A stretch of DNA of 58,531 bases from a virus, in the IMG/VR virus record IMGVR_UViG_3300007760_000015, positions 1 to 58,531 of that record; one strand, 5' to 3'. Both the position numbers and the translations under genes were made by a program. This document shows, in pieces, positions 8,801 to 58,531 of this stretch. How positions within the stretch are numbered: the first letter of the stretch is position 1; each line of letters begins with the position of its first letter. The notes beneath the pieces are model-generated. The model ran no database searches. It had not been told where the DNA came from and saw only the letters and a list, made by a program, of their open reading frames with translations.

Positions 8801-8899
8801 TATAATATTGATAATAAGGAAGATTTAAGAGAGTTTCTTGCTGATGATTTGTCAGGTGATGATGAAGAAAAAGCTTTTGCATATTTTGGGTTTAAATAA
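5801..8899 (+). CDS. Large baseplate hub-like structural protein with annexin-like C-terminus
   Basis: A 1032-residue protein. The segment IKDISVEYKGGYKAIRKATI followed by NW, DRLTPHFLTIGQTIALEWGW (around residues 115-170) resembles the tail-tube-like domains of baseplate hub proteins (gp27-type), where an LxWGW motif is common. The middle has long beta-rich stretches. The final ~75 residues (WMGTDEKRLWAALDKIGDN ... LREFLADDLSGDDEEKAF) look like one annexin-type repeat (GTDE...AL ... LSGD), a module seen in some bacterial surface and contractile-system proteins. A hub role is inferred from position and the WGW segment; the annexin comparison is by eye. Confidence 0.55.
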   Translation: MIVSYIDKKIQETLKARERAFARKGQSSGEAKSDDISFSDIMSRTVYIRMASNKENSEFNVMLDGGTEVSANVRYRINEKGDVEAYTNTPSTRKGYGFKDDGTGAYRGTQSMGIRPIAGIKDISVEYKGGYKAIRKATINWSVGSIEDLDRLTPHFLTIGQTIALEWGWQKSNKKDTNVGNFITIKNVDGNNVIDVNSDLFDNPIPTLISKGGDYDAMGGIISNFEYKLREDGGFDCVTYITSLGGSLFKKSMDKEGEIGLGAVYDKDAIVLQDEEDIENMGGFKKSDFDGLLHGILNLKNIVSDSFARHSGSKEMGGTLIHSSEKDKYSIRTKYNHNLIRIAVNYTNVHYFVRWGWFEDNILTKYLSLIDDKKLTLTFRSIELDESGKYKSCYISNNKKNLVPIDPLKFILFGQNPSGGNLAFTGEIKKEEKKNIIKIFDKLATSKEFHKFSVEENDNIGQIRNIYVNITEIQKAFGIEKNISNEKYGYVDQNKVKPPSTIEAGLNSLLKSIESNFYNQWKFNIVLDTNNTKNLKIVDENYVSPGDENNGEIIYSKFDDVGKMSSNGIYKFPSFNVGSIVKGQDLSFKIPDSMAVTAMYGSSNEKSFASEEYSKYNKLMLINKKFDSTKDNEMDNLSVAYLKHNEIGNIRAEENKKITAEGGWRRGRSWLRYIKTSIKKNESDAVKMSLKDDRNWSYENGTFTLTSDNSDAVMTSDNYYIYDEDNFHIVMKPKAAQAVRDFFNSPKEGSKYLSTFFLIPAELSLEVDGIGGIQPGNICQTDYIQKKYNENVEVDGNSYGPLTFFQIFGIDQKVDGSGWTTSLSTKMRVNTHSMGKVEEFFILEYLSTLSDRSFDQSGDTSVEVDYNELDEEEKEEYKIVVGAAAGFSGETETFVIPQTGEKVEIEPLLKSDADVNAVINEESKGEVSNVQSDVERKKDVQKEKVVNTITDDEVEYITDEIFEAIDYWMGTDEKRLWAALDKIGDNRDMANAVNSKFDEKYNIDNKEDLREFLADDLSGDDEEKAFAYFGFK

Positions 8900-8910
8900 G
8901 AGAAAGTAAG

Positions 8911-9573
8911 ATGCCAAAAGATACAATAAACGAACAAAAATTAGATAAAATAATGGAAGCCCGTAGGACTAACCAACCTGTTTTTAATTATAGAATTAAA
9001 AATATAGTTGAGCGGACTGATAGAGTAGTGAAGAATCAAATTGTTTCCAAAGGAGAGTTTAAAGATGAGAGAGGTCGGTTGGTCAAAGATGGTACTGTTT
9101 ATCATATTCATTATACAAAAGATTTGAAAGAATACTTTATGACTGGTGAGAAGCATGGATTCTTGAGCAAACTTATTTATCCAATAAAGAAGATTACAGA
9201 GTTTGGTTTGTATAATAAATTAAATGGTCAACAGCCACTTACTCTTAAAGGAGAAACAATAAAGCCTACAGAAGAAGATTATAAGAGAGGATTTTATAAA
9301 CGACATTTTGTGATAAAGGCAAACGATGATTCATCAATACCATTTGAAATAAATCGTGGTCATCTTGATACATCACCATTGTATAAGTATGTATCTTTAA
9401 AGTGGTATATTAAAGGGAATAAGGATAAAATTAAAGAACAAAATAATAGCCAAAAGAAAATTGCAAGTAAAGTAATTTCCAATGTTGGTAAGTTATTACC
9501 AGATTTTCAGTTTTTTAAATTTGAAGAAAATTTATCACCTAAAGAATTAGTTGAAAAAAAATTGGGTTTATGA
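8911..9573 (+). CDS. Conserved-looking structural protein of unknown function
   Basis: A 220-residue soluble protein beginning MPKDTINEQKLDKIMEARRT, with SD GAGAAAG just upstream. It closes the baseplate block, 11 nt after the hub-like gene, so it is probably co-transcribed and virion-associated. There is a basic C-terminus and no signal peptide, transmembrane segment or catalytic motif that I can recognise. Confidence 0.6.
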   Translation: MPKDTINEQKLDKIMEARRTNQPVFNYRIKNIVERTDRVVKNQIVSKGEFKDERGRLVKDGTVYHIHYTKDLKEYFMTGEKHGFLSKLIYPIKKITEFGLYNKLNGQQPLTLKGETIKPTEEDYKRGFYKRHFVIKANDDSSIPFEINRGHLDTSPLYKYVSLKWYIKGNKDKIKEQNNSQKKIASKVISNVGKLLPDFQFFKFEENLSPKELVEKKLGL

Positions 9574-10339: not shown

Positions 10340-11587
10340 ATGATAGAGTTTGAAGAAAATGACTCTATCGTAATTCCAATCCAATGTGATGATAATAAAC
10401 ATCCGTGGGAAACTGAATTATGTGTATTGTATGTACAGTTTCTTAACGGTGTAGAATATGTTTTACCCTTTAGACATTCAGATGCGCTGAATCTAAATTC
10501 TAAATACATTCCATTAACACAAACTCCAAAGAATACTTATGTGTATGATAAGAAGAAATTACTACATTTTTTTAAGTGGGATAATGTATTTGATGTTCAG
10601 TTAAGTCATTATATGAAAACGAATGAGCCGCTGATAATAGAAGATTTAATAACATCCGCACATGAACATTTTTATAGAGATTACTATGATATTCCAAATA
10701 TAAATTGCGTAATTCCATTGATGAAACATATAGAATGGTGTAGGGAATTGGTCAAAATATTAAAAAGTGCGTCAGATACGGATAAAGATAATAAATCGTA
10801 TAATGTGTATAACAATGATGTATTAGAGAACTTAAATTATATAGAATCAAGTGGGTTACAAACAACAGATGGTATGGTATATTCAGAATACAATCCATAC
10901 ACTTTAACTGGACGACCATCTAATAGATTCGGTGGTATTAACTTTGCCGCTCTTAATAAGAAAGATGGAAGTCGTGAGAAGTTCGTAAGTAGGTTTGGTA
11001 AAGATGGAATGTTAGTGGAGATGGATTATGATGCTTACCATCCATCTATAATTGCAGATATAGTAGGATATAAATTTGATGGTGATGTATATGTACAATT
11101 AGGGAAATATTATGGTACTGCTAGAGAAGAAAGTAAAATTTTAACCTTTCAATATTTGTATGGTCATATACCCGATGATGTATTGAGAGTTATTCCATTT
11201 TTTGTTAGTGTGGATAATTATATAAATGACATGTGGCGTGAATATAATCACAATGGTTATACTGAAACAGCTCTTTTTAAAAGGAAAATATATAAACAAA
11301 ATTTAACAAATATGAATAAGAATAAATTATTTAATTATTTTTTACAGTCAGCAGAATTTGAGTATAGTGTTACAACCATGACTAAGTTACGTGAGTTTAT
11401 TGGCTCGGGTAACTGTAAAAGTAAATTTATATTATATACATACGATTCTTTTTTATTTGATATGCACTTATCTGATGGCAAGGATTTTATTTTAACCATT
11501 AAAGATATATTAGAGGATGAGAAGTTTAAAGTTAAAGTAAAATATGGATTCAACTATCATAATATGAGTGATTTTATTAAAATATGA
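10340..11587 (+). CDS. Divergent family A-like DNA polymerase, no obvious exonuclease motifs
   Basis: A 415-residue protein. ATG 10340 is chosen over 10304 because GGAG at 10329-10332 is ideally spaced. Visible motifs: a TGRPSNRFGGINFAALNK segment like the TGR...NLQNIP region of Pol I; motif A-like VEMDYDAYHPSIIADI; motif B REESKILTFQYLYG, which fits Rx3Kx7YG exactly; and motif C-like LYTYDSFLFD in place of the usual HDE. The N-terminal ~180 residues sit where the 3'-5' exonuclease would be but lack its acidic motifs. It is much shorter than Pol I (about 600-900). It probably synthesises DNA in repair or replication beside the split family B polymerase. Motif A reads partly like family B (YPSII). 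Family call is moderate to good. Confidence 0.65.
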   Translation: MIEFEENDSIVIPIQCDDNKHPWETELCVLYVQFLNGVEYVLPFRHSDALNLNSKYIPLTQTPKNTYVYDKKKLLHFFKWDNVFDVQLSHYMKTNEPLIIEDLITSAHEHFYRDYYDIPNINCVIPLMKHIEWCRELVKILKSASDTDKDNKSYNVYNNDVLENLNYIESSGLQTTDGMVYSEYNPYTLTGRPSNRFGGINFAALNKKDGSREKFVSRFGKDGMLVEMDYDAYHPSIIADIVGYKFDGDVYVQLGKYYGTAREESKILTFQYLYGHIPDDVLRVIPFFVSVDNYINDMWREYNHNGYTETALFKRKIYKQNLTNMNKNKLFNYFLQSAEFEYSVTTMTKLREFIGSGNCKSKFILYTYDSFLFDMHLSDGKDFILTIKDILEDEKFKVKVKYGFNYHNMSDFIKI

Positions 11588-12596: not shown

Positions 12597-14657
12597 ATGA
12601 TTACAGACATTAAAAAGATATTAGTAGAGTGGGCTTATCGTACTAATGATGGTAAACCTAATCCAAAGAGTATGGGACATCAAATTTTATTAGATGAAGT
12701 TTTAAAAGATTTTGGGTGGAATTTAGAACAGAGATCTGAATTAATGAATAATTTGATGGAACAGCCATCGGATAGAGAAAAATTGATGAAGAAGGTTATT
12801 AAGTATAAAAATGATGATGGTGAAGATAAAGAGATAACAGTTGGTGGTGCATTAAAGCAGGGTGAAGAACATCCGGCTTATGATAAAGCAAAACAAATTA
12901 CGGATACAGGTGATGATAAACAACAATCCAAAGGATTAGAACCAGATGATTTTGAAAGATTTTCAGATAAGAATAAACCAGATGAAAAAGAAAAAGGAGA
13001 TGAACAACCAAAAGATGATGAAGAAGGTGAGGGAATAAAATCTGGAGAGCCAAATCAAAAAGATAAATCTCTAAAGGATGTAAACACATCCGAATCAGAA
13101 GTATATTCTAATCCTGATACTGGTATTTCGGATGAAGAGTTTTCAGAAAAAGGTATAGAATCAAATTTTGAAAATGAAGAAGATGAATTACAAGAATCTG
13201 CATTAGATGAATATTTTGCAAGTGGTAAGATACCAAAAAAATATCAAAAAGTAATCACTCGATTAATGAACTCAAAACTCGGTAAACAAAGTATTACAGA
13301 TTATATGACAGGAGTAGGTGCCGGTAAAATACAATCTCAGGCAGGTGAAATACTTACGATGGCAAGTGTTGGAATGAATGATGAAGAATTTGATGGTTTT
13401 ATGGAAACATTGAATAAACAAGTTGGTAAGTATCCAAAAGGTAGTAAACCGGTTGTGACAAAAGATTGGTTAGAATCAGTAAAACATGTAAGAACTGTTA
13501 CTATGAAAAGATATAATTCAGAGTTTGGTAAAGGTAATTGGAGTATTAGTAATAGTGCATGGGATGTACAGAATGAGTTTGAAGCATTAGGTAATGATGA
13601 TTATAATGCAAACAAAGGATTTTCATCTGATATGTATGTTAAGTTAGAAGTAAATGGTGAACCTGTATTAGATGAAATATCACTTAAAAAAGATTCAACA
13701 GCTAATATATACAACGGAGTTGTTACTGATATAAATAATTGGTCTGATAAAGTACCACCACAGGCAGATATAAAAGAATATAAAAAAGGTGAGATACAAA
13801 GACCTATTGAATATGGAACTAAAGCAAAAACATTAAAATATACCTCAGATGATTTGCTTAACGAAAATGTAATCAAAAATAAAAATTTGAAAATAACACT
13901 TGCATCATTAGGAGTAATTAAAGGTGATGCTAAAAAAGGATATACTATAGACTCAAAAGCACAAGAAATATTAGACGAATTATCATCTATGGAAATTCCA
14001 CCACCAATAGATAGAGCTAGATTTAAAGAAGTTATGGGTACAGGCGACACGACTAGATTTAAAAAGTATATGATTATGCATGCTGCAGTACAAAGAGCAA
14101 ATGAAATTGCAAATGGTAATGATGGGGAATCAGAGGCAAGTAAATTTTTAAATAATCATTTGGGTTATGAAAAAGGTGAAGACGGAAAGTTTCCTAAAGG
14201 TTCAATAAAAAGATATGAGAATGATACTATACAATTTTTAGTTGAAGATGAAGAAGCTAAAGAGGGGTGTTTAAATGCATTAGCAGAAAAGTTACCTATG
14301 AAATCTTTATTAGAGGGTGAAGAAAAAATGGCAATAGGTGGATTATCCGCAGATCCTAAAACATTAAAAAGAATGTTTGGTATAGATAATTATGATGACT
14401 TTAAAGCTGGATTAACTATGAAAGATGATGATTTAGGTCAAAATTACTTGGTCTATCGTTCACAAAAACCAGCTAAAGAAGTTTCCATAGCAGAAGTTCA
14501 AGTAAGACAAAAAGGAAAAGGTTACGCGTCAAGTGTTGGTTTAGAGTTCGCTATTGCAACAGATTTTGCAAAAGAGTTGTATGATGCTAATAAAGAGGAA
14601 TATCCACCTGAACCAGAAATAAGTTCCAAAGAACGAAATAAGCTAGGAGTTGGTTAA
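12597..14657 (+). CDS. Large protein of unknown function, possible structural or nuclease-fold protein
   Basis: A 686-residue protein starting MITDIKKILVEWAYRTNDGK. Residues about 75-200 are a highly charged, low-complexity linker rich in D, E, K and Q. The central part has a KGFSSDMYVKLEVNGE ... LDEISLKKDS segment; the D...ExSxKK arrangement with flanking beta strands resembles a PD-(D/E)xK nuclease core, but this is only a motif by eye. The end has VSIAEVQVRQKGKGYASSVG. Proteins with a similar N-terminus occur in marine T4-like phages as putative virion proteins, from memory. A TATAAATA element lies directly upstream, which fits late expression. Confidence 0.55.
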   Translation: MITDIKKILVEWAYRTNDGKPNPKSMGHQILLDEVLKDFGWNLEQRSELMNNLMEQPSDREKLMKKVIKYKNDDGEDKEITVGGALKQGEEHPAYDKAKQITDTGDDKQQSKGLEPDDFERFSDKNKPDEKEKGDEQPKDDEEGEGIKSGEPNQKDKSLKDVNTSESEVYSNPDTGISDEEFSEKGIESNFENEEDELQESALDEYFASGKIPKKYQKVITRLMNSKLGKQSITDYMTGVGAGKIQSQAGEILTMASVGMNDEEFDGFMETLNKQVGKYPKGSKPVVTKDWLESVKHVRTVTMKRYNSEFGKGNWSISNSAWDVQNEFEALGNDDYNANKGFSSDMYVKLEVNGEPVLDEISLKKDSTANIYNGVVTDINNWSDKVPPQADIKEYKKGEIQRPIEYGTKAKTLKYTSDDLLNENVIKNKNLKITLASLGVIKGDAKKGYTIDSKAQEILDELSSMEIPPPIDRARFKEVMGTGDTTRFKKYMIMHAAVQRANEIANGNDGESEASKFLNNHLGYEKGEDGKFPKGSIKRYENDTIQFLVEDEEAKEGCLNALAEKLPMKSLLEGEEKMAIGGLSADPKTLKRMFGIDNYDDFKAGLTMKDDDLGQNYLVYRSQKPAKEVSIAEVQVRQKGKGYASSVGLEFAIATDFAKELYDANKEEYPPEPEISSKERNKLGVG

Positions 14658-15070
14658 TGAAATCACAACTTCTCTGCACTTTCACTGCTAAACATCAACT
14701 TGATGATATTTTTGAACTCATTATAGAATGTAACGATATTCTATACAATAAGATATATGTATTCCAAAATCTTAATGATTCATCACAATTAATTTGTACA
14801 TATAATATTGAATACGATGAAGAAAATTATATGGAAAATATTCCAAATACTATTTCATTGCACCGTAAGAAACAAAGTAATACATTATATACTATAAATG
14901 CTCTTAATGAGGTAATTAGGTCATTAAATAATGGGGTATTAGATAAAAGGTTTCCAGTACCTTGGGAAGAATATCAAAATAGTTTATTGCTTACCAATGA
15001 TATGGGACTTAATAAAATACCAACAAAAATACACAGTATCGTGGATACAAAAAAATCTGAAAAAGAGTAA
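14657..15070 (+). CDS. Conserved hypothetical protein upstream of gp32
   Basis: A 137-residue protein, MKSQLLCTFTAKHQLDDIFE, with a YNKIYVFQNLNDSSQL segment and RKKQSNTLYTINALNEVI. It overlaps the preceding gene by one base (TAATGA), so it is coupled to it. I recall similar short proteins in marine T4-like phages without known function. There is no enzymatic motif. Confidence 0.6.
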   Translation: MKSQLLCTFTAKHQLDDIFELIIECNDILYNKIYVFQNLNDSSQLICTYNIEYDEENYMENIPNTISLHRKKQSNTLYTINALNEVIRSLNNGVLDKRFPVPWEEYQNSLLLTNDMGLNKIPTKIHSIVDTKKSEKE

Positions 15071-15175: not shown

Positions 15176-15931
15176 ATGGATATTAATTCGATTCGTAAGC
15201 GTCTTAACCAACTTCAGACAACAAATAACAGAACTTCAAACTTATGGAAACCACAGCCTGGTAAACAGGTAATTCGTGTGTTACCATATAAACATAATAA
15301 GGACAATCCTTTCATTGAATTGTTCTTCCATTTTGGTTTGAATAATAAAACATATCTTTCACCAATTACATTTGGTCGCCCCGACCCGATTGAAGAGTTT
15401 GCACAAAAACTTAAAACAAGCGGAAATCGTGAGGAATATCAGATGGCTCGTAAATTGGAAGCAAAAATGAGAACCTTTGCTCCAGTTATCGTTCGTGGTG
15501 AAGAAACTCAAGGAGTTCGTTTCTGGGGATTTGGTAAAACTGTTTATCAAGAATTACTCGGTGTAATTGCCGACCCAGATTATGGTGATATTACAGACGC
15601 TGTTAGTGGTCGTGATGTTTCCGTAGAATTCATTACTGCTGAAGAAAGTGGTGCTTCATTTCCAAAGACGAATGTTCGTGTGAAACCTAATCAAACACCT
15701 ATCGTGGAGGATAAAGCTCAAATGGAAGCTCTCTTGGAAAATCAAAAAGATATTACTGAATTATATCAGGAACTATCCTATGATGAATTAACCGGCGTTC
15801 TAAACGAATGGTTAAACCCAGATGGTGAAGCAGAAACAACTGAAAAGGAAACCGCTCCAACTTCAGTTGTTGCTAGTGAAACAAAAGTAGAAGATGCCAG
15901 TGCGGCATTTGATGACTTATTTAATAAGTAA
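15176..15931 (+). CDS. 32: Single-stranded DNA-binding protein, gp32-like
   Basis: A 251-residue protein with MDINSIRKRLNQLQ at the N-terminus (basic, like the cooperativity region of gp32), an OB-fold core including FIELFFHFGLNNKTYLSP and GVRFWGFGKTVYQELL, and an acidic, serine/threonine-rich tail ending AAFDDLFNK, the typical partner-binding tip of phage SSBs. The whole sequence contains no cysteine, so the zinc site of T4 gp32 (three Cys and one His) is absent. It is followed by the UvsX-like recombinase. SD CAGGAG is well spaced. Confidence 0.85.
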   Translation: MDINSIRKRLNQLQTTNNRTSNLWKPQPGKQVIRVLPYKHNKDNPFIELFFHFGLNNKTYLSPITFGRPDPIEEFAQKLKTSGNREEYQMARKLEAKMRTFAPVIVRGEETQGVRFWGFGKTVYQELLGVIADPDYGDITDAVSGRDVSVEFITAEESGASFPKTNVRVKPNQTPIVEDKAQMEALLENQKDITELYQELSYDELTGVLNEWLNPDGEAETTEKETAPTSVVASETKVEDASAAFDDLFNK

Positions 15932-15946
15932 GTAGGGTTATAAACT

Positions 15947-16025
15947 ATGGTGGTTGTTGAAGCCAACAACTAATAAAACCGATTGTGTGCGACGCATCGT
16001 CTATAAAGCCGGACACAACCACCAT
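15947..16025 (+). promoter_or_regulatory. Intergenic element with two competing stems between gp32 and RecA genes
   Basis: An 11-bp perfect stem joins 15947-15957 to 16015-16025 and is followed by TTTT. A competing 7-bp hairpin (15953-15959 with 15964-15970, loop AAGC) uses five bases of the outer 5' arm. Inside lie a GACG-CAT-CGTC mini-hairpin (15991-16001) and a GTGT/ACAC pairing. The outer stem resembles a long-loop terminator; the alternative hairpin would prevent it. It may set the ratio of gp32-like to RecA-like protein, or be a processing site. Function inferred. Confidence 0.45.
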
Positions 16026-16043
16026 TTTAATTAGGAGAATTAT

Positions 16044-17141
16044 ATGTCGATACAAGACGACTTGGCTAACACATTAGCCACTTCCTTGAATAAGAAATTT
16101 AAGGATTACAAAGTCGCCCACTTCTTGGGTGGCGCAAACGCAACGCCAACAGATATTAAAGAATTTATTTCAACTGGATCAACAATGTTAGATTTGGCAA
16201 TTTCTAATAGACCAGATGGTGGAATCGCAGTAGGTAGAATCACAGAATTAAATGGACTTGAAAGTAGTGGGAAATCATTAGTTGGTGCACACCTACTTGC
16301 TGAAACTCAAAAGAAGGGTGGAGTTGCTGTTTATATAGATACTGAAACTGCTGTAAGTGAGGATTTCTTAGAGGTGATTGGAGTGGATATAAGTAATATG
16401 TTATATTTACATTTAGAAACTACAGAAGATATATTTGAAGCCATTGAAGAAATCATAACGAAAGTTAGGGAATCAGATAAAGATAGATTAGTAACTATAT
16501 TAGTTGATTCACTGGCGGCTGCTTCTACCAAGGTGGAATTAAATGCTGACTTTGATAAAGATGGTTGGGCTACAAGTAAGGCAATCATCATTTCTAAAGC
16601 TATGAGAAAGATTACTCAAATGATTGGTAGGCAGAGGGTTGCTCTTGTATTTACTAATCAATTAAGAGTAAAATTAGGAGCTATGTTTGGAGATCCATAT
16701 ACTACTTCAGGCGGTAAGGCTCTTCCATTTCACGCTTCAACTCGTATTAGATTAAAGAATAAAGGTCAAATTAAAGATAAGAAAAAGAATGTAATTGGTA
16801 TGACCATTTTGGCTCAAGTTGTTAAAAATAGATTGGGTCCACCTTTGAGGAAAGCAGAGTTTCCATTATACTTTGAGAGTGGTGTAGATGATGATGGCAG
16901 CTGGTTAGTAGTAATGAAAGAGCATGGTATAGTAAAAACCAGCGGCGCTTGGTATTCTATGACAGACCACAATGGTGATGAAGTTAAGTTCCAGTCGAAG
17001 GAATGGGCTGATAAATTAAAAGATGAAGATTTTAAAGCTCATTGTTATAAACTAATTTGTGATAAAGTGATATTGAAGTATGAAAAGGCTGACTTGGGTA
17101 TAGATGATGTAATCCAAACTGATGAGGTTTTGGGTGACTAA
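16044..17141 (+). CDS. uvsX: RecA/UvsX-family recombinase
   Basis: A 365-residue strand-exchange ATPase. Walker A GLESSGKS (near residue 75), VYIDTETAV, Walker B-like VTILVDSLAAAS and a RecA-type loop FTNQLRVKLGAMFGDPYTTSGG-like region (shown in parts: LRVKLGAMFGD, TTSGGKALPFH). In T4-like phages UvsX drives recombination-dependent replication and acts on gp32-coated ssDNA, fitting its place right after the gp32-like gene. SD TTAGGAG is strong. The next gene starts inside its last codons. Confidence 0.9.
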   Translation: MSIQDDLANTLATSLNKKFKDYKVAHFLGGANATPTDIKEFISTGSTMLDLAISNRPDGGIAVGRITELNGLESSGKSLVGAHLLAETQKKGGVAVYIDTETAVSEDFLEVIGVDISNMLYLHLETTEDIFEAIEEIITKVRESDKDRLVTILVDSLAAASTKVELNADFDKDGWATSKAIIISKAMRKITQMIGRQRVALVFTNQLRVKLGAMFGDPYTTSGGKALPFHASTRIRLKNKGQIKDKKKNVIGMTILAQVVKNRLGPPLRKAEFPLYFESGVDDDGSWLVVMKEHGIVKTSGAWYSMTDHNGDEVKFQSKEWADKLKDEDFKAHCYKLICDKVILKYEKADLGIDDVIQTDEVLGD

Positions 17142-23387: not shown

Positions 23388-25163
23388 ATTTATCAGAATT
23401 TATATTATGATCAAAGAAACCGGAAAGTCCATATATGGGATGATGAAAATGGGTATTTCACTATGCCTTATAAACGGTATGCTTATGTAAAGGATAGAAG
23501 TGGAACTCATGTATCTTTATATGGTGATAAATTAAAGAAGGTATTTAGATATGAGCCAGACACACCTAATTTATTTGAATCTGATGTACCACCTGAAACT
23601 CGTGTATTAGTAGATCAATATAAAGATTCAGATGATATGTCCACCGGTCATAGAATTATGACTATTGATATTGAGGTGGAAGTTACAGATGGGTTTCCAG
23701 AACCAAAGCAAGCAAAAGATAGAATAACGTCAATCGCTGTGTACAATTCAGCTGACGATACATATTACGCATTTGCATTAGATGAGGATAAAAGATTGAC
23801 TCTTGAGTCAAAAGGTAACGTTGTAATTGAATCTTTTGATGATGAGTACTCTTTATTGCAGAGATTCCTTGTTAAGTATATGGAATTTAAACCCACAATT
23901 ATTACTGGGTGGAATATAGATACATTTGATATGCCGTACTTGTACAATAGAATGAGTAAAGTTGTAGGTAGTAATATAGCAGATGTCCTTTCACCCATAA
24001 GAGAAGTTAAATGGAATAAGCACAGAAAAAGATACTTGTTTGGTGGAGTAAGTTGTTTAGATTATTATGCATTATACAGATTATTTACTTACACTCAATT
24101 ATCATCTTACAGATTGGATGCTGTTGCTGAGCATGAGTTAAGTGAGAATAAACTTGAATACGAAGGTACGCTTACAGATTTATATGAAAAGGATTTAAAT
24201 AGATATGTGGAATATAATATTCATGATGTTAGACTTGTAAAACGATTAAATGATAAATTAGATTTTATTGACATGGCACGTGGTGTATGTCATGTTGGTC
24301 ATGTTCCTTATGAAGATGTATTTTTCTCATCAAGATATTTAGAAGGTGCTATTTTAACATATCTAAAAAAGATGGGAATTGTTGCACCAAATAAACCACC
24401 TCGGCCAGAAAAAATGAGTGATGATAAGTTTATAGGGGCGTATGTAAAACACCCACAGAAAGGGAAGCACGATTGGGTATTTGATTTGGATTTAGTGAGT
24501 TTATATCCCAGCATTATACGGAGTTTGAATATAAGCCCTGAAACAAAGATAGGTAAGTTAAGTGGTTGGGATGCAGAGGAATTTATTAAAGGAGTGAAGA
24601 AAACATACACTCTAACATCAAATGATAAAGAAATAGGGAAGCTTACTGAAACAGAACTAAAAGATTTCTTTGATAAAAATAAAGTTTCAATATCTTCTAA
24701 TGGTGTATTATATAGAAGTGATAAACAGGGACTAATTCCTGCTTTATTATCTAAATGGTTTGATACTCGAGTAGAGTATAGGAAACTGATGAAGAAGTTT
24801 GGTGATGCCGGTGATAATGAAAAATATACATACTTTAAGAGTCGTCAGTTAATTCAGAAAGTGGTGCTTAATTCAATGTATGGTTGTTTGGGCTTAAAGA
24901 GTTGGCGATTTTATGATCTCGATAACGCAACTGCGACTACAATTACTGGTCAGGAACTTATTAAATTTACATCAAAAATGGCTAGTTATAAATATAATTC
25001 TATATTAGGTTATCCGATTGAAATTGAACTGGAAAATGGTGATGTTAAAAAGTTATATGAGAACTCTATGGTATATGTAATTAGAAATCATAAAAAAATA
25101 AAAGTATTAGTAAAAGATATAATTAAATCGGATGATTTTTTATATGAAGTATATTTTAAGTAA
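23388..25163 (+). CDS. 43: Family B DNA polymerase, N-terminal fragment (gp43A-like), apparent AUU start
   Basis: 591 residues. The frame encodes polymerase-like sequence (YYDQRNRKVHIWDDENGYF) upstream of the first ATG (23463) and has no ATG, GTG or TTG there; AGAGGTG at 23376-23382 is spaced for ATT 23388 (I/M-YQNLYYD). Exonuclease motifs: TIDIEVE, TGWNIDTFDMPYL, EYNIHDVRLV. Polymerase motif A DLVSLYPSII and motif B KVVLNSMYG follow. The native sequence runs to about KYNSILG and then continues as a ~50-residue Hint/intein-like tail (IELENGDVKKLYEN, YVIRNHKKIKVLVKD, SDDFLYE) before TAA. Motif C and the thumb are in the next fragment. Both pieces must associate to form the enzyme. Confidence 0.85.
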   Translation: MYQNLYYDQRNRKVHIWDDENGYFTMPYKRYAYVKDRSGTHVSLYGDKLKKVFRYEPDTPNLFESDVPPETRVLVDQYKDSDDMSTGHRIMTIDIEVEVTDGFPEPKQAKDRITSIAVYNSADDTYYAFALDEDKRLTLESKGNVVIESFDDEYSLLQRFLVKYMEFKPTIITGWNIDTFDMPYLYNRMSKVVGSNIADVLSPIREVKWNKHRKRYLFGGVSCLDYYALYRLFTYTQLSSYRLDAVAEHELSENKLEYEGTLTDLYEKDLNRYVEYNIHDVRLVKRLNDKLDFIDMARGVCHVGHVPYEDVFFSSRYLEGAILTYLKKMGIVAPNKPPRPEKMSDDKFIGAYVKHPQKGKHDWVFDLDLVSLYPSIIRSLNISPETKIGKLSGWDAEEFIKGVKKTYTLTSNDKEIGKLTETELKDFFDKNKVSISSNGVLYRSDKQGLIPALLSKWFDTRVEYRKLMKKFGDAGDNEKYTYFKSRQLIQKVVLNSMYGCLGLKSWRFYDLDNATATTITGQELIKFTSKMASYKYNSILGYPIEIELENGDVKKLYENSMVYVIRNHKKIKVLVKDIIKSDDFLYEVYFK

Positions 25164-25181
25164 CATAACAGAGATAATAAA

Positions 25182-26092
25182 ATGAAAATTAAAAGTATAA
25201 GGAGGCTGCCCAACGTCGATGTGGATCATGTGATCTACATCGATACTTAACTGATTCAATCTTCATGACTGCACTCCCAATAATTAAAAAGAGATTCCCT
25301 ACAATGGACTTCGATAGTGAAACTTTAATGAGTAAAAGAATATTGGATGTGGCTGATGAAATGCAGACATTTTTAAATAGTTCTTATGATTATTTCGCAA
25401 AGAATTTTCTTAATTTAGATAACCATAGATTTGAGATTAAACAGGAGCTGATTGCAAAGTCGGGATTGTTTATTGTAAAGAAAAGATATGGGATGAAAAT
25501 TATTAACGATAATGGAGTAAAAGTAAATAAGCTTCATGTTAAAGGATTAGATTTAGTTAGAAGTAATTTTCCAAAAGCTATGGGTGAATTATTGAAAAAT
25601 GTATTAGAAGATATATTAGCAACAGTACCTAAAGATAAAATAGATGAAAGAATTATTAACTTTAAGGAATCAATGAAGTTAGTTGATTTTGATAGAATTT
25701 CAATGCCGACTGGAGTAAAGGGGCTGGAGAAATACTCAGCCGGTAAGAAAGGAAACTTTACAGAGTTTGCTAAGGGATCTCCAGCGCACGTGAAAGCTGC
25801 TATCACTTACAATGATTTATTGAAGCATTATGGGCTTACAGGTAAATACCAATTAATATCTGAATCGGAAAAGATTAAATGGGTTTATTTAAAACAGAAT
25901 GAGCTCGGATTAGTATCGTGTGGGTACAAAGGATATGAAGACCCACCTGAAATTATTAACTTCATTAAAAAGAATTTGGACTATAAGAAGATGTATAGTC
26001 AAATGTTGGAAAAGAAAATCTTATTGTTTTACGAAACATTGAAGTGGGGGCAGCCAGTAAATAAAAAGGCTTCCATTGAAAGATTTTTTTGA
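25182..26092 (+). CDS. 43: Family B DNA polymerase, C-terminal fragment (gp43B-like), read through a 5-nt ribosome hop
   Basis: Proposed join 25182-25247 plus 25253-26092, 301 residues. The first 22 codons (MKIKSIRRLPNVDVDHVIYI then DT) end at stop TAA 25248; the rest, in another frame, begins T-DSIFMTALPIIKK. The codon ACT before the stop recurs at 25250; joining them gives YIDTDSIF, the catalytic motif C with both aspartates. Without the join the second ORF would start at ATG 25265, have no ribosome site and lack motif C. The rest has the thumb signature KKRYG and ends KASIERFF, a PIP-like clamp-binding tail. An indel error is the main alternative. Confidence 0.7.
25199..25205 (+). promoter_or_regulatory. 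Internal AAGGAGG before the polymerase hop hairpin
   Basis: A perfect Shine-Dalgarno-like heptamer inside the short reading frame, 9 nt before the hairpin. It has no productive start codon of its own: the ATG at 25219 gives four codons only. If the hairpin is folded, the heptamer lies 14 nt from the landing ACT. A matching AAGGAGG lies at 33571. It could tether the ribosome during bypass. Confidence 0.5.
25215..25252 (+). promoter_or_regulatory. Hairpin and ACT-TA-ACT hop site in the polymerase gene
   Basis: The stem pairs 25215-25227 with 25232-25244 (13 bp, two G-U, loop ATGT) and its 3' arm encodes VIYID of motif C. Take-off ACT 25245-25247 directly follows the stem; stop TAA is 25248-25250; landing ACT is 25250-25252. 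Matched take-off and landing codons with an immediate stop are the features of the T4 gene 60 bypass. There is no T-run, so it is not a terminator. Confidence 0.6.
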
Positions 26093-26875: not shown

Positions 26876-27640
26876 ATGGAAACGTATGTAGATACATCGA
26901 AAATATCTATTAGACCAATACATAAACCATTGGCTAAGGATATGATTGAGAAGAACCATTATAGCGGAAGATTATCTTCTTGTAGATACCCACTTGGAGT
27001 ATTTTATAGAGATGATGAAAGTGAACATCAATTTTTTGATGTTGATGAAAAGCTCATTGGTGTAGCTACATATGGATTTCCAGTAGGGCGAAGGGTTATC
27101 GGATCAATATTCAAAGAAGATATATTAGAGAATAGAAATATATTGGAACTTACGAGATTATTTATACACGATGGTTACGGAAAGAATATTGAGTCGCATG
27201 TTATATCAAGCACATTTAAGTGGTTGAAGAAATATGCACGTGAGATTAAGGTACTAATATCCTATGCTGACCCAGAGCAGAATCACGATGGTGCTATCTA
27301 TCAAGCCACAAATTGGATTTATCAAGGATGTGGTGATTTTCAGATGGCACCAACTTATTCATTAAAATTGAATGAGGATGATGATTGGATGCACAGTAGA
27401 AGTGTGTATTCAAAGTTTGGGTCAGCAGCACCCGACAACTTAAAGAAAGCCATAGGTCATGACTTTTGGTTAAAGAAGGAGGCTTCCAAGCACAGATACA
27501 TTTACTTTCTTGGTAGTAAATCAGAGAATAGAAAATTTAGAAAAATGATGAAACATCCTGAAATGAAATATCCAAAGGATTATAATCATGATGTTGAAAT
27601 AACAAAAATTGAGGTAGAAAATAAAAAATGGGAAAGTTAG
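26876..27640 (+). CDS. Mom-like DNA-modification protein 1
   Basis: A 254-residue member of the phage Mu Mom-like family (GNAT-related fold), which in Mu converts adenines in DNA to N6-carbamoylmethyladenine. Motifs: NHYSGRLSSCRYPLGVFY, ELTRLFIHDGYGKNIESH, and SYADPEQNHDGAIYQATNW; the last matches the SYADxxxGHxGxIYqAtN signature. It lies inside the replication cluster between clamp and clamp loader, three bases after the clamp stop. It is closest to the copy at 47876 (shared HDGYGKNIES). The substrate is not known. Confidence 0.75.
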   Translation: METYVDTSKISIRPIHKPLAKDMIEKNHYSGRLSSCRYPLGVFYRDDESEHQFFDVDEKLIGVATYGFPVGRRVIGSIFKEDILENRNILELTRLFIHDGYGKNIESHVISSTFKWLKKYAREIKVLISYADPEQNHDGAIYQATNWIYQGCGDFQMAPTYSLKLNEDDDWMHSRSVYSKFGSAAPDNLKKAIGHDFWLKKEASKHRYIYFLGSKSENRKFRKMMKHPEMKYPKDYNHDVEITKIEVENKKWES

Positions 27641-29300: not shown

Positions 29301-29676
29301 CATTTCTGATGATGATAAGAAGTCATTTTCAAATTATATGATAAATAGATTTTTAAGTATGAAGGGATCGGGAGATTGGATAGATTTAGTAAATGAAATA
29401 CAAAAATATCCATTACAATCAAAAGAGTTATACAAATTATATATTAATATACTACCAAAAGGTAAACAATGGTTAAAGTATGTTAAGGGAGATAAGAAAA
29501 TGAAATATCCAAAATGGGTTTATGAAATGGTAGCCAAATACTTACAATGTAGTTTAAGAGAAGCTGAAGATGCTGTGGAGATGTATGAATTATCCTATGG
29601 CGGTCAAGCTGAACTTAAAGATATTTTAATGAAATATGGCAAAACAGAGAATGAATGTCGTAAAATAGGATTATGA
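29197..29676 (+). CDS. 62: Clamp-loader small subunit (gp62-like)
   Basis: A 159-residue protein. The segment SLFDHIQHITAVQSPTYWTD followed by NYMINRFLSM and ILPKGKQWLKYVKGDK matches the small clamp-loader subunit of marine T4-like phages as I recall it. It forms the loader with gp44, which lies 0.5 kb upstream, as in T4 order 44-62. The N-terminal KKNGKESLVKKK is lysine-rich. The start is uncertain because it overlaps the small ORF at 29130-29300; ATG 29197 is the only in-frame candidate before the conserved part. Confidence 0.65.
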   Translation: MSGKKNGKESLVKKKSLFDHIQHITAVQSPTYWTDISDDDKKSFSNYMINRFLSMKGSGDWIDLVNEIQKYPLQSKELYKLYINILPKGKQWLKYVKGDKKMKYPKWVYEMVAKYLQCSLREAEDAVEMYELSYGGQAELKDILMKYGKTENECRKIGL

Positions 29677-30305
29677 GCGTAACTGATTTTACAATTGAAG
29701 AAATACCACGTAAATTCGTAGATCCTTTTATAAGAAAACACCATTATTCTGCTAGTACAAATGGCATTCAACAAAAAGAATGTTTCGGTTTATATACAGA
29801 AGGCAACTTTGGATTACCTAAAATGATTGGTGCTATGATGTATGCTATACCATCAATGCCACACACAGCAAAGAGATATAATCCAATCAATCCTGATAGG
29901 TGTATTGAGTTGAGAAGGATGTGTTGTATTGATGAGACACCCAAAAATACTGAGAGCTATTTTATAGGTAAAACTTTAAGATGGTTAAAGAGAAATACAA
30001 ATTATGAAGTAGTAGTTTCTTTTGCAGATCAACATTATGGTCATTCGGGAATAATTTATAAGGCTTCAAACTTTGAATCTTTGGGAATGACTGGTCAGGC
30101 AAGAATATTGATGGTAGATGGAAAAGAATACCATTCTCGATCTTTAAGTCAACCAATAAAACCTTATAGTGTTGAAATTCGGAGAAGATGGAAAGCTAAA
30201 GATCCAAATGTATTTTTTGTTAAGAGAAAACCCAAGCATATTTATGTATACTATCTCAACAAAAAAATCAAAAGAAAAATAAAAAAGTTAAATGATAACA
30301 ATTGA
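29673..30305 (+). CDS. Mom-like DNA-modification protein 2
   Basis: A 210-residue protein of the Mom-like family: RKHHYSAS near residue 22, ELRRMCCIDETPKNTESYFI, and SFADQHYGHSGIIYKASNFE, matching the family signature S(Y/F)AD..YGHxGxIYkAsNF. It is followed by a basic C-terminal tail (KRKPKHIYVYYLNKKIKRK). It overlaps the clamp-loader subunit by four bases. It is divergent from copies 1 and 4 and nearer to classical Mom in length (Mu Mom is about 240). Confidence 0.75.
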   Translation: MSVTDFTIEEIPRKFVDPFIRKHHYSASTNGIQQKECFGLYTEGNFGLPKMIGAMMYAIPSMPHTAKRYNPINPDRCIELRRMCCIDETPKNTESYFIGKTLRWLKRNTNYEVVVSFADQHYGHSGIIYKASNFESLGMTGQARILMVDGKEYHSRSLSQPIKPYSVEIRRRWKAKDPNVFFVKRKPKHIYVYYLNKKIKRKIKKLNDNN

Positions 30306-30888
30306 ATTAGTAGAGGATAGAAGTCAAAAACAAGCAGTAAAAAATATCATAGAAAATCATCATAGTTATGTAGCATCTAATGACTCAGTAGGTAGAAGAA
30401 TAGATTGGTTAGTTTATCATTCGGATTATACAAATGTGTTGGGGCTTGAAAAGCCCGTTGGTATGATTGGTATAGGCTCTTCAGTTTATCCACCACCAAA
30501 AGATATTTTAAGATATGCTGGGATGAAGAAGGATGAGTATAAAGAAAAATTTAATGAGTTTGGAAATAATTGGAGATTCTGTATGACTACATATATTAAG
30601 AATGCAGGAACACAGATATTGAAACAACTTAGAAAACAAGCACCTATAGAGTGGAAGAAAAAGTATGGAGATGATTTGAAGTGGTTAATTACTTTTGTCG
30701 CTGGTGGTAATAATGGTGCTGTTTATAAAGCAGATAATTGGAAACAGATTGGTGAAACTGCTGGATTACCAAAACATAAAGCAGTATCTATGAAGTGGCA
30801 TAAAGATAACTTAGATACTATGTTTGTGAAACCAACTGGTGAAAATAAGAAAATAATTTTTATAAAAAAGCTTGACTTGTATAGGTAA
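30292..30888 (+). CDS. Mom-like DNA-modification protein 3 (divergent)
   Basis: A 198-residue protein, ENHHSYVASNDSVGRRIDWL near the N-terminus and FVAGGNNGAVYKADNW near the C-terminus, which line up with NHYS and with the (D)xxxGHxGxIYKAxN motif of the other copies; the aspartate and histidine of that motif are replaced (AGGNNGAVYKADN). A PVGMIGIGSSVY strand fits the GNAT-like core. It overlaps copy 2 by 14 nt, so they form a pair. It may act on another substrate or be a partner subunit. Confidence 0.55.
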   Translation: MITIELVEDRSQKQAVKNIIENHHSYVASNDSVGRRIDWLVYHSDYTNVLGLEKPVGMIGIGSSVYPPPKDILRYAGMKKDEYKEKFNEFGNNWRFCMTTYIKNAGTQILKQLRKQAPIEWKKKYGDDLKWLITFVAGGNNGAVYKADNWKQIGETAGLPKHKAVSMKWHKDNLDTMFVKPTGENKKIIFIKKLDLYR

Positions 30889-47719: not shown

Positions 47720-47889
47720 GTAAAGAATTAACAAAAGAGCAAATGCAAGAGTTAGAGATAATCGCAACTGAAATAGAAATTGAGGCTCGTAAGTTACGAT
47801 TGGAATATGAGAAGAATCCATCGGAAGAGAGTGGATCTGTAGTTGTAATCCATCAATACAGTGAGTTTATAGAGGATGAAGAAGAATAA
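47716..47889 (+). CDS. Small acidic helical protein
   Basis: A 57-residue ORF, MSKELTKEQMQELEIIATEI then EIEARKLRLEYEKN, one long helix with acidic tail EFIEDEEE. Overlaps the Mom-like gene 4 by 14 nt, consistent with co-translation. Confidence 0.5.
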   Translation: MSKELTKEQMQELEIIATEIEIEARKLRLEYEKNPSEESGSVVVIHQYSEFIEDEEE

Positions 47890-48637
47890 ATATGTAGATA
47901 CATCTAACTTAATTGTTCGTGAAATAGATAGAAGGGTTGCAAGAGATATGGTGGTTAAATACCACTACTCAAAACAATGGACTAAATGTAGTGTTGCTCT
48001 CGGGTTATTTTATATGACAGGGAATGAACATAAGTTTTTTGATGAACCAGAAGAGAAGTTAATCGGTACGATATGTTATGGTGATCCAATAGGTAGGCTT
48101 ACTGGTGCTTCTATATCGGATATTATACCGAGGGAATCTGTTTTTGAGTTGGTAAGGTTATTTGTTCATGATGGTTATGGTAAAAATATTGAATCTTGGT
48201 TTATTTCAAAGAGTTTTGATTGGTTAAAGAAGAATAGAAAAGATATTAAAGCTTTGATATCATATTCAGATCCACAACAAGGTCATGTCGGAACTATATA
48301 TCAGGCAACAAATTGGTTGTATCAGGGTAACAAAATAAGACCATCGGATAGTTGGTTATTTAAATGGGAAGAGGATGGTAAGTGGCAACATCCACGAACT
48401 ATATTCCCTTATTATGGTACAACCGATATAGAGAAGATTAGTACCTTAGTTGAGAAAGATTTTTGGATAAAAAAGGAATTGAGAAAACATAGGTATGTTT
48501 ATTTGTTAGGTAGTAAAAAACAAAAGAGGAAAATACTAAAAAACTTAAAACATCCTATCTTACCTTATCCGAAGACTGCTGCCATAGAGGAAGCGGAAAT
48601 AAAAAAAATAAAAGTTATAGGAGTCAAACATGGCTAA
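47876..48637 (+). CDS. Mom-like DNA-modification protein 4
   Basis: A 253-residue close paralogue of copy 1: KYHYSKQWTKCSVALGLFY, ELVRLFVHDGYGKNIESWFI, SYSDPQQGHVGTIYQATNWL and the shared C-terminal KHRYVYLLGSKKQKRKIL. The aspartate in SYSD is kept. It lies 20 kb away from the other three, in the accessory region, so it may derive from duplication or exchange. It overlaps the next gene by 8 nt. Confidence 0.72.
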   Translation: MKKNKYVDTSNLIVREIDRRVARDMVVKYHYSKQWTKCSVALGLFYMTGNEHKFFDEPEEKLIGTICYGDPIGRLTGASISDIIPRESVFELVRLFVHDGYGKNIESWFISKSFDWLKKNRKDIKALISYSDPQQGHVGTIYQATNWLYQGNKIRPSDSWLFKWEEDGKWQHPRTIFPYYGTTDIEKISTLVEKDFWIKKELRKHRYVYLLGSKKQKRKILKNLKHPILPYPKTAAIEEAEIKKIKVIGVKHG

Positions 48638-56715: not shown

Positions 56716-56734
56716 TATATTTATATATGAAGTA
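56716..56734 (+). promoter_or_regulatory. Repeated TATATTTATATATGAAGTA element
   Basis: Identical to 33053-33071; 26 nt before the ATG at 56760 with CGGAG between. Likely promoter of the internal-head-protein group. Confidence 0.4.
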
Positions 56735-56759
56735 TACTATAATTTCGGAGAACAGTTCC

Positions 56760-57512
56760 ATGACAGATAAAATTAAGGAAGTAATTAAAGAGTTACAACT
56801 TAACGAAAACCCAGCGGCTATGGCAGCAGCATCAATGGCATCTATTAAAATAAAGAATCCAAAGACAGGCAAAGAGAATTCTGCGGTTACAGCTCTCCGT
56901 GATAAAGATCACCCCAATCATAAAAAAGCAAAAGGTATATTTTCTCGTTTAAAAGATAAGTTTTCCAAAAAGAAAAAAGATACTCCAAAAAAACAATCTA
57001 AAGCTGATGGTGATTTTTATGCAAAGCAAATGGGATTTAAAAGAGAATCCATAGAATCTAAACTCCGTAATATGATTAGAAAAGAGTTACAATCCATAAA
57101 CGAAGCCACCGGCAAAGAAAAGGTATTTATGCAAAATGGATTTTTATGGATTTCGTGGTCAACTGGAAGTGGTTCAACTACCAGAATGAGAGGTAGAGGA
57201 TTTGTTACCGATAAAAAAGGTGATAAAAATTTTGATTCTGATGCTACACAATTTGCACAATGGGCAAAGAAAAATAAACCAATTAAAAAACAGAAACAAC
57301 ATAATGGTAGTATTATGTATTTATTCAAAATACCAGAATACATTAGAGGAATTGATAGTAGAGATTTAAGTGTTTGGGGTGGTGAAGTTAAGCCAAATAA
57401 ATGGGTATATTTAATGGTATCGTCAGGTAAAATAAATGTAATTACTGTATTTCACTCAAAAGCTGAGGCGATGTCTTGGTTTAATACTACGAGTAGTGCC
57501 GATGATAAATAG
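56760..57512 (+). CDS. Putative internal head protein with prohead-protease sites
   Basis: A 250-residue protein. MTDKIKEVIKELQLNE followed by NPAA is an amphipathic segment ending in L-N-E; a second, KLRNMIRKELQSINE then ATGKEK, ends in I-N-E|A. T4 gp21 protease cuts after (I/L)-x-E, so both look like cleavage sites. Between them is a very basic, Lys-rich linker. The C-terminal ~130 residues (VFMQNGFLWISWSTGSGS) form a folded domain that would be released in the head. ATG 56760 has CGGAG. Confidence 0.55.
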   Translation: MTDKIKEVIKELQLNENPAAMAAASMASIKIKNPKTGKENSAVTALRDKDHPNHKKAKGIFSRLKDKFSKKKKDTPKKQSKADGDFYAKQMGFKRESIESKLRNMIRKELQSINEATGKEKVFMQNGFLWISWSTGSGSTTRMRGRGFVTDKKGDKNFDSDATQFAQWAKKNKPIKKQKQHNGSIMYLFKIPEYIRGIDSRDLSVWGGEVKPNKWVYLMVSSGKINVITVFHSKAEAMSWFNTTSSADDK

Positions 57513-57522
57513 GAGTAACAAA

Positions 57523-57810
57523 ATGAAAATAACTAAATCACAATTAAGAGAAATGATTAGAGAAGTTTTGAGTGAAGGTGAATTTGCATTTAAACAAGCA
57601 TTAAAGAAAGCCCCAAAAGTGGGTGAGTATTATGTTTTATCCAATCAATATGGCCGTCCAGCAAAAACTTATTATTACATAGTAGATAATGACGCAAAAA
57701 TTTTCCATCATAAAGATAAAAAATGGCGTAAGAAGGAATTAAGTCAGATGCGGACATACGCATTCGGTACAGAAAAATCTGCTGTTGATTACATTAAAAA
57801 GAATCTGTAA
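57523..57810 (+). CDS. Putative internal head protein with N-terminal targeting segment
   Basis: A 95-residue protein, MKITKSQLREMIREVLSE then GEFAFKQAL, an 18-residue amphipathic helix ending in L-S-E|G, similar to the capsid-targeting sequence of T4 internal proteins. The rest (VGEYYVLSNQYGRPAKTYYY) is a small folded domain. ATG 57523 with AGGAG. Confidence 0.55.
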   Translation: MKITKSQLREMIREVLSEGEFAFKQALKKAPKVGEYYVLSNQYGRPAKTYYYIVDNDAKIFHHKDKKWRKKELSQMRTYAFGTEKSAVDYIKKNL

Positions 57811-57866
57811 ACAGAGGTCGTAAAGAGAAATCACGATTGAAAAAGAAAACAACGGAGAATGTTGAT

Positions 57867-58531
57867 ATGAACGAACAAAAATTAAGAAGAGCTATCAGAG
57901 AAATGCTAAAGGAAGATTGGTGGAGTGATATGAGTTCATACGACCAACAAAAATATATTAAGGACCATCCCGGAAGTGATAAAGCCAAATCTTCAAAAAA
58001 ATCTAAAAAAGATAAAGAAGATAAGAGAAAGAAATTAACAAAGAAAGATTATGAAGTAGATGCTGCTACCGGCAAAGCTGTTAAGAAGAAAGAAAAGAAA
58101 AAGGAAGACCCAAAGAAAAAAGATAAACACGTACAAGCAATTAAGAAGGGAATGTTCCCCGGCTCTAAAGAATATAAGAAATTTATGGCTAAAAACGAAT
58201 CCATAAATGAAGATAAGTTTTCAAAACAACAACTGAATAAGTTAAAGTCGTCATATGGGTCACTTAAAACAATGAATCCATCATCACCTATCTATAAGAA
58301 ATTTATTAAGTTTTTAGAGAAGTTACCTAAAAACCAATTAAAACAATTAGCAGATGCAGATATAAAATTTATATCAATGTTAGCAAAGAACAGAATTAAA
58401 GAATCCATAAACGAAGCAACAGAATTTATCGCAATTTACAACAGAAAAAAGATTATAGTAAAAGGTGATAGCCTTTATGATGCTAAATTACAAGCTATTA
58501 AACAATTAAAAGTTCCAAAATCAAAACAAGG
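57867..58531 (+). CDS. Putative internal head polyprotein (3' end outside the window)
   Basis: At least 221 residues, open at the right edge. MNEQKLRRAIREMLKE resembles the N-termini of the two preceding genes. A long Lys-rich region follows, then NESINE|DKFSKQQL and KESINE|ATEFIAIY, two I-N-E sites that would separate a ~60-residue helical domain and a C-terminal domain (IIVKGDSLYDAKLQAIKQLK). It may be cut into several peptides inside the head. ACGGAGA ribosome site. Confidence 0.55.
   Translation, partial: MNEQKLRRAIREMLKEDWWSDMSSYDQQKYIKDHPGSDKAKSSKKSKKDKEDKRKKLTKKDYEVDAATGKAVKKKEKKKEDPKKKDKHVQAIKKGMFPGSKEYKKFMAKNESINEDKFSKQQLNKLKSSYGSLKTMNPSSPIYKKFIKFLEKLPKNQLKQLADADIKFISMLAKNRIKESINEATEFIAIYNRKKIIVKGDSLYDAKLQAIKQLKVPKSKQ

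Follow-up and report, generated by a model that had tools for sequence, protein, structure and literature searches.

Predicted capsid-cargo genes, in part putative polyproteins, behind a mobile leader in an uncultured T4-like phage

Three leader-bearing genes at a contig end

The window, by which we mean the whole stretch of DNA analysed, is a 58.5-kb virus record with 32% GC. At its 3′ end lie three genes whose products carry leader-like helices and predicted cut sites resembling those of gp21 of phage T4, which cuts after L/I-x-E (PMC9026906). Their parts are listed in Table 1.

Table 1. Parts of the three terminal genes of the window (a slash marks the predicted cut)
Feature	Position	Strand	Description
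Gene 1	56727..57512	+	261 aa; alternative ATG 56760; leader, module 1N, internal leader-like helix, module 1C
Gene 1 leader, MTDKIKEVIKELQLNE/	56760..56807	+	Capsid-targeting-like helix; cut after Glu (LQLNE/N) predicted from relatives
Gene 1 internal leader-like helix, RESIESKLRNMIRKELQSINE/	57042..57104	+	Separates modules 1N and 1C; KELQSINE/A after 57104
Module 1C	57105..57509	+	Present behind other leaders or linkers in L006, L065, L122 and L012
Gene 2	57526..57810	+	ATG 57526; 94 aa; leader and one module
Gene 2 leader, MKITKSQLREMIREVLSE/	57526..57576	+	Predicted cut site before G, after 57576
Gene 2 body	57577..57807	+	Relative in 469-kb contig L014
Broken out-of-frame remnant of another module's end, NRGRKEKSRLKKKTTENVD	57811..57866	+	Between genes 2 and 3
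Gene 3	57867..58531	+	ATG 57867; at least 221 aa, open at contig end; leader and three modules
Gene 3 leader, MNEQKLRRAIREMLKE/	57867..57914	+	MLKE/D after 57914
Module 3A (DWW...NESINE/)	57915..58211	+	NESINE/D after 58211
Module 3B (FSKQQ...KESINE/)	58212..58415	+	KESINE/A after 58415
Module 3C, incomplete	58416..58531	+	Runs to contig end

Scans of the three genes against Pfam, PHROG and NCBIfam returned weak matches alone (E 0.009 or worse). Among 50,697 phage records, genes 1 and 2 had no match, and gene 3 was matched through module 3B alone, in five Rhizobium phages. Searches of viral contigs gave relatives at 12 loci for gene 3 and at five for gene 2; the whole gene 1 protein found no relative there, and the relatives of module 1C surfaced only through those of gene 3. 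In L014 (9908-10264), the gene 2 body relative stands behind a Cys-rich, zinc-ribbon-like segment and the leader is absent.

AlphaFold2 predicts module 1C to be a folded alpha/beta domain (pLDDT 78.6, pTM 0.77), and fold searches with this model found no known fold at E ≤ 0.001. The cut sites lie outside the predicted fold, except for one I-P-E within the folded part. The structure prediction for gene 2 was poor (pLDDT 60.8) and was set aside.

The preliminary description, made from the letters of this DNA, had quoted five cut-site segments, all of which are present in the three genes at the positions given for them; MLKE/D of gene 3 is an additional site missing from that list. It had characterized the sites as I/L-x-E followed by A or G. 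The I/L-x-E part stands, strict forms of such sites being enriched beyond chance, whereas the residue after the cut (P1′) is N or D at several of them. Sought in the other genes of the window, as had been proposed, S[ILV]NE was found nowhere else: it occurs three times in the three ORFs (596 aa, extended starts) and not once in the 71 other plus-strand ORFs (17,552 aa). The pattern [LI]NE[AGSDN] occurs four times in the three ORFs and five times elsewhere; 0.17 occurrences would be expected in the three ORFs, and none of 2000 shuffles reached the observed number. The helix pattern LR..[IL][RK][EQKN] is absent from every other window ORF of at least 30 aa in six frames. At motif level, the genes have a predicted N-terminal propeptide ending in L/I-x-E.

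A T4-like phage fragment lacking its head region

Pfam and PHROG scans identified T4-type replication genes in the window, namely UvsX, a gp41-type helicase, a family B polymerase, a clamp loader and a single-strand binding protein. Microcystis phage Mel-JY01 is matched by 22 window ORFs in one largely colinear run, covering 37–87 kb of its genome, and by four further ORFs at other places; its UvsX is 52% identical to that of the window, the top match among 2064 phage records. The window polymerase is split into two ORFs (23463-25163 and 25265-26092), where Mel-JY01 has a single gene. The window also encodes three Mom-family DNA modification proteins (26876-27640, 29673-30305 and 47876-48637; Pfam Mom 7.8e-44, 2.2e-40 and 1.7e-45), and a fourth gene at 30292-30888 combines a DruA match (1.8e-7) with a weak Mom-like match.

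In Mel-JY01, which is cultured, the terminase, S77 protease and capsid genes lie at 15.8–26.6 kb, ahead of the colinear run, so the window is without its head region; its 3′ end, where the three genes sit, could continue into that region. The PF03420 protease and gp23 both gave no match in the window, a fragment that ends before any head gene. We infer that the window phage has the S77 protease. The Mel-JY01 genome contains the protease but no cargo-type gene cluster. A ribosomal protein S21 gene lies near its prohead protease gene (L099 15155-15382).

Gene 3 is a DNA patchwork

The DNA of gene 3 is assembled from stretches shared with different relatives. Positions 57909-58188, in module 3A, are 86% identical over 280 nt to ORF 9992 of L002–L004; 58191-58424, in module 3B, are 82–87% identical to modules in L005–L012; and 58410-58531 are 99% identical to L002–L004. 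Similar patches occur upstream: DNA at the gene 1 internal helix (57029-57085) is 84% identical to an internal leader of the L002 polyprotein, and 57772-57887, around the remnant between genes 2 and 3, is 86% identical to L012 9246-9355.

The last 119 nt (58413-58531) are identical to L002, L003 and L004, and the end base is the same as that of contig L004. A length of 119 nt is a common assembler word length, and the contig end is therefore probably a branch of the assembly graph. These last 119 nt may be assembler overlap, which makes the continuation of module 3C unsure.

The leader behaves as a mobile cassette

The leader follows the consensus MK[IL]TKxxLxx[MI]IREE...[LI]xE, a short N-terminal amphipathic helix. 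Its DNA pattern matched at least 120 stretches in IMG/VR; scrambling the order of its 15 degenerate codons left no match. Behind the leader, 80 sampled bodies fell into 76 unrelated families. Within each of five contigs, leaders share 78–89% DNA identity against 31–34% for the bodies, and shared residues use the same codon in 64–87% of cases, compared with 49–54% expected. Unrelated genes in L002, L008, L012, L018 and L067 have leaders that match the DNA of the gene 2 leader (about 57520-57565) at 93–98% identity. Contig L002 has nine leader genes by a strict pattern. Of 576 non-core proteins near the protease, 125 had a leader-like start; the counts for internal control windows and core proteins were 69 of 1630 and 14 of 195. 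These sequence comparisons support a leader that acts as a mobile head on unrelated bodies.

Leader genes lie in head clusters beside a gp21-family protease

In relatives, leader genes are often found in head clusters, flanked by a gp21-family prohead protease and the gp23 gene. PF03420 (Peptidase_S77, the gp21 family) was detected in 11 of the 16 records to which the window genes led (counting the window, which has none) and in 39 of 79 records picked by leader DNA alone. By size class, the raw counts for the latter were 9 of 9 at 100 kb or more, 10 of 13 at 40–100 kb and 20 of 57 below 40 kb; among leader-bearing records of at least 40 kb, 19 of 22 had the protease. The 40 negative records of the 79 are mostly short fragments but include 3 of the 13 at 40–100 kb. 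The L012 protease scores 108 bits (5.4e-31) against a Pfam cut-off of 27; its gene occupies 7824-8504, and the S77 gene of L002 occupies 10553-11164. H89 and S129/S130 are invariant in six S77 sequences, and we take the conserved His and Ser to be the catalytic residues.

Contig L012 illustrates the arrangement: terminase, portal, a 287-aa ORF, a leader-bearing ORF and the S77 protease are followed by a 630-aa polyprotein, several leader genes, a volactin-family actin, a scaffold-like acidic ORF and gp23 (terminase, portal and scaffold were identified by eye). The actin-like gene inside this head cluster lies at 15322-16356 (PF25216, 7.2e-74), and L010 has a volactin-like gene at 8519-9553, recognized by sequence likeness only. 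The portal gene of L002 (3617-7930) is a 1437-aa ORF that contains portal pieces and two HNH endonuclease stretches, possibly inteins. In the 37-kb contig G001, leader genes occupy 25.2–37.0 kb; in the 45-kb contig G009 they occupy 30.0–38.2 kb with protease and gp23 flanking, and one weaker match lies at 15.4 kb. Two larger contigs were dropped as complete models: G014 (206 kb) for its few, weak leaders, and L014, which is without PF03420 or gp23 and whose gene 2 relative is leaderless.

A protease, capsid, portal or terminase gene was near the leader in 40 of the 80 sampled loci, and the protease itself in 16, at a median distance of 878 nt. The capsid proteins of the same contigs carry QLI[SDN]E or QLLDE where the propeptide would be expected to end by analogy with T4 gp23.

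Module borders coincide with predicted cut sites

Polyproteins in relatives reach 941 aa (L002), with linkers of the form E-S-[IV]-N-E or E-G-K-L-[TN]-E. The same modules recur behind different leaders and linkers. Module 1C is preceded by MKLTKSKLREMIREELLVE/ in L006, MIKLRSLITE/ in L065, ESKLNE/ in the L012 polyprotein and ELQSINE/ in the window; in L122 it follows a leader and is itself followed by EGKLNE/ and another module. Module 3B, with different neighbours in L005, L007, L009, L010 and L012, is preceded by LLTE/, ESVNE/, KLKE/, KLND/ or ESINE/. The KLND linker is that of L005, and Asp at the Glu position of a site prevents cutting in T4 (PMC9026906). Module 3C is preceded by ESVNE/ in L002, TYLNE/ in L018 and ESINE/ in the window. 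A leader-like helix occurs mid-protein in gene 1 and in the L002 and L018 polyproteins, and a 668-aa ORF of L018 contains an intact leader including its Met; the polyproteins thus look like fused leader genes. PHROG families of about 50–100 aa (phrog_6437, 9437, 9411, 9544 and 7595) align with single modules along most of their length, as expected if modules stand as single genes elsewhere. By these comparisons, the polyproteins appear to contain at least two independent domains separated by protease motifs.

Among cultured phages, the L009 polyprotein had no match. The first module of the L012 polyprotein is DUF3008, a relative of which (SSCSM1_93) is annotated as 'virion protein' in cyanophage S-SCSM1; mass spectrometry identified 45 virion proteins in that phage, and the available passages on it do not name ORF 93. 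In the cultured Rhizobium phage RHph_N28_1 (L130), module 3B starts the gene (12840-14687) that directly follows the major head protein gene; this phage has no PF03420 match, and its module 3B gene has no leader.

Agreement between module borders and sites was quantified in 579 non-core proteins near the protease, drawn from 92 protease-bearing loci. Of the 1377 inner ends that shared segments have in this set, 676 had an [LIVMF]xE no more than 6 aa away; with shifted sites the figure was 419 ± 17. After removal of similar proteins (279 left), 293 of 645 borders, under half, lay at such a site against 177 ± 11, and T4's own [LI]xE was found at 181 against 107 ± 9. In this reduced set, the controls [LI]xD (68 vs 70) and [LI]xK (210 vs 191) were near flat, and [KRDNQST]xE was also raised (259 vs 200) because the linkers are Glu-rich. 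In initial tests on the full set of ORFs the relative effect was smaller, since core genes and low-complexity matches diluted the signal.

The initial proposal of capsid-targeting helices with gp21-type sites is thus borne out by the relatives, as far as sequence comparison reaches, through the S77 protease, the mobile leader and the borders at sites. The suggestion that the last gene has internal sites and may be a polyprotein gains support from the relatives' module borders; the gene itself is cut off by the contig end.

Cargo, core or docking helices

We consider it likely that all three genes encode capsid cargo, some of it as polyproteins that would be cut apart in the prohead. The basis is a leader conserved on unrelated bodies, a head-cluster location with a protease in relatives, and module borders that agree with the sites. 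In the proposed mechanism, the N-terminal amphipathic helix would bring the product into the assembling prohead, where a gp21-family serine protease would cut after the Glu of L/I-x-E and free the cargo. Gene 1 would be a polyprotein of two modules and gene 3 one of three or more, linked by cut sites, allowing several cargo proteins to share one targeting helix and be separated inside the head. New cargo would be acquired by recombination at leader and linker DNA. The freed proteins would probably remain with the packaged DNA, and some may enter the host at infection.

The products might instead be prohead core (scaffold) proteins like T4 gp22, gp67 and gp68, chopped at several L/I-x-E sites into pieces that leave the head, so that the multi-site proteins would be throw-away filler. 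T4 core proteins, gp22 and gp67 among them, are indeed cleaved into several pieces, most of which are lost (PMC9026906), the genes adjoin the protease and scaffold in relatives, and many modules are small and K/E-rich. Yet the sites concentrate at module borders, there are single-leader genes in which one of these modules stands by itself and would lose nothing but the leader, and cargo turnover is extreme at 76 families in 80 sampled bodies. The predicted compact fold of module 1C and the virion annotation of the DUF3008 relative also speak against filler, and we regard a core role as unlikely.

Less probable still, and in our view quite doubtful, is that the helices stay uncut and serve in docking or assembly with the portal, scaffold or capsid shell, with Glu merely part of the helix motif. 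In its favour, several sites have an unusual P1′ (N, D, R or E), and cleavage at the sites is itself a prediction. Against this, the borders track [LI]xE and neither [LI]xD nor [LI]xK, G or A occupies P1′ more often at border sites (34%) than elsewhere (18%), and in these contigs the capsid protein, too, carries the motif where its propeptide is expected to end.

That chance acidic/basic helices in the K/E-rich coding sequence of a 32% GC genome were over-read as motifs would fit the weak enrichment of the looser [LIF]xE[AGS] (4 occurrences, where the other ORFs predict 1.6; this number was reached in 34 of 2000 shuffles), but it is contradicted by the strict motif enrichment, the scrambled-pattern control and the recurrence across contigs, and is hardly credible.

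Comparison with known systems

The closest parallel to the proposed cargo genes is the set of T4 internal proteins IPI, IPII, IPIII and Alt, the model for phage proteins delivered with DNA. They likewise have a short N-terminal leader ending in L/I-x-E, with different bodies behind one kind of leader (PMC9026906; passages of PMC9958956). In IPIII, the first 10 residues are enough for head entry (PMC9026906), and IPI inhibits a host nuclease, according to passages of PMC9958956. Both systems are associated with head genes and a gp21-family protease, here in relatives. Unlike its T4 counterparts, the leader described here is 16–22 aa long with another consensus, and the Pfam, PHROG and NCBIfam scans matched no IPI, IPII, IPIII or Alt family; there are also up to nine leader genes per contig by the strict pattern, and multi-module polyproteins. 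Single-module genes would fit the T4 internal-protein picture, and the polyproteins would be a new mix: the way of working appears common to both, and what appears new is the fusion and shuffling.

With gp22, gp67 and gp68 of T4 the genes share several cut sites per protein, predicted ones here, and, in relatives, a neighbouring protease, but where the T4 fragments are mostly discarded, the sites here border exchangeable modules also found as single genes. The head and ejection proteins of phiKZ and SPN3US, cut by the prohead proteases gp175 and gp245, match what is proposed here in that many proteins inside the head are cleaved, with multiple propeptide cuts; they differ in an S/A-x-E motif and long propeptides, and the passages available from the two sources mention no shuffled modules (PMC9026906, PMC10052503).

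Viral polyproteins such as those of potyvirids are made as one chain and cut by their own protease at short sites between the products. One chain, a protease of the virus's own and short cut sites would be shared with the genes described here, where cutting would take place inside the capsid and the products would be accessory cargo. Our search of the open-access literature found no report of this arrangement.

Implications

A broader picture, which we put forward tentatively and at somewhat less than even odds, is of a group of uncultured T4-like phages with modular delivery. In such phages, the leader would stand on dozens of cargo genes, polyproteins of up to about ten modules would be fused via the cut site, and the head protease would dice them in the prohead for delivery with the DNA. 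Leader and linker would serve as recombination points, the cargo set turning over like interchangeable parts. If dozens of cargoes are carried in this way, some as polyproteins, the leader would mark delivered phage proteins directly and across whole genomes. Most of the proteins so marked are without a known family, and they would form a list of candidate early counter-defence or host-takeover proteins; a phage head protease would, moreover, be acting on accessory polyproteins.
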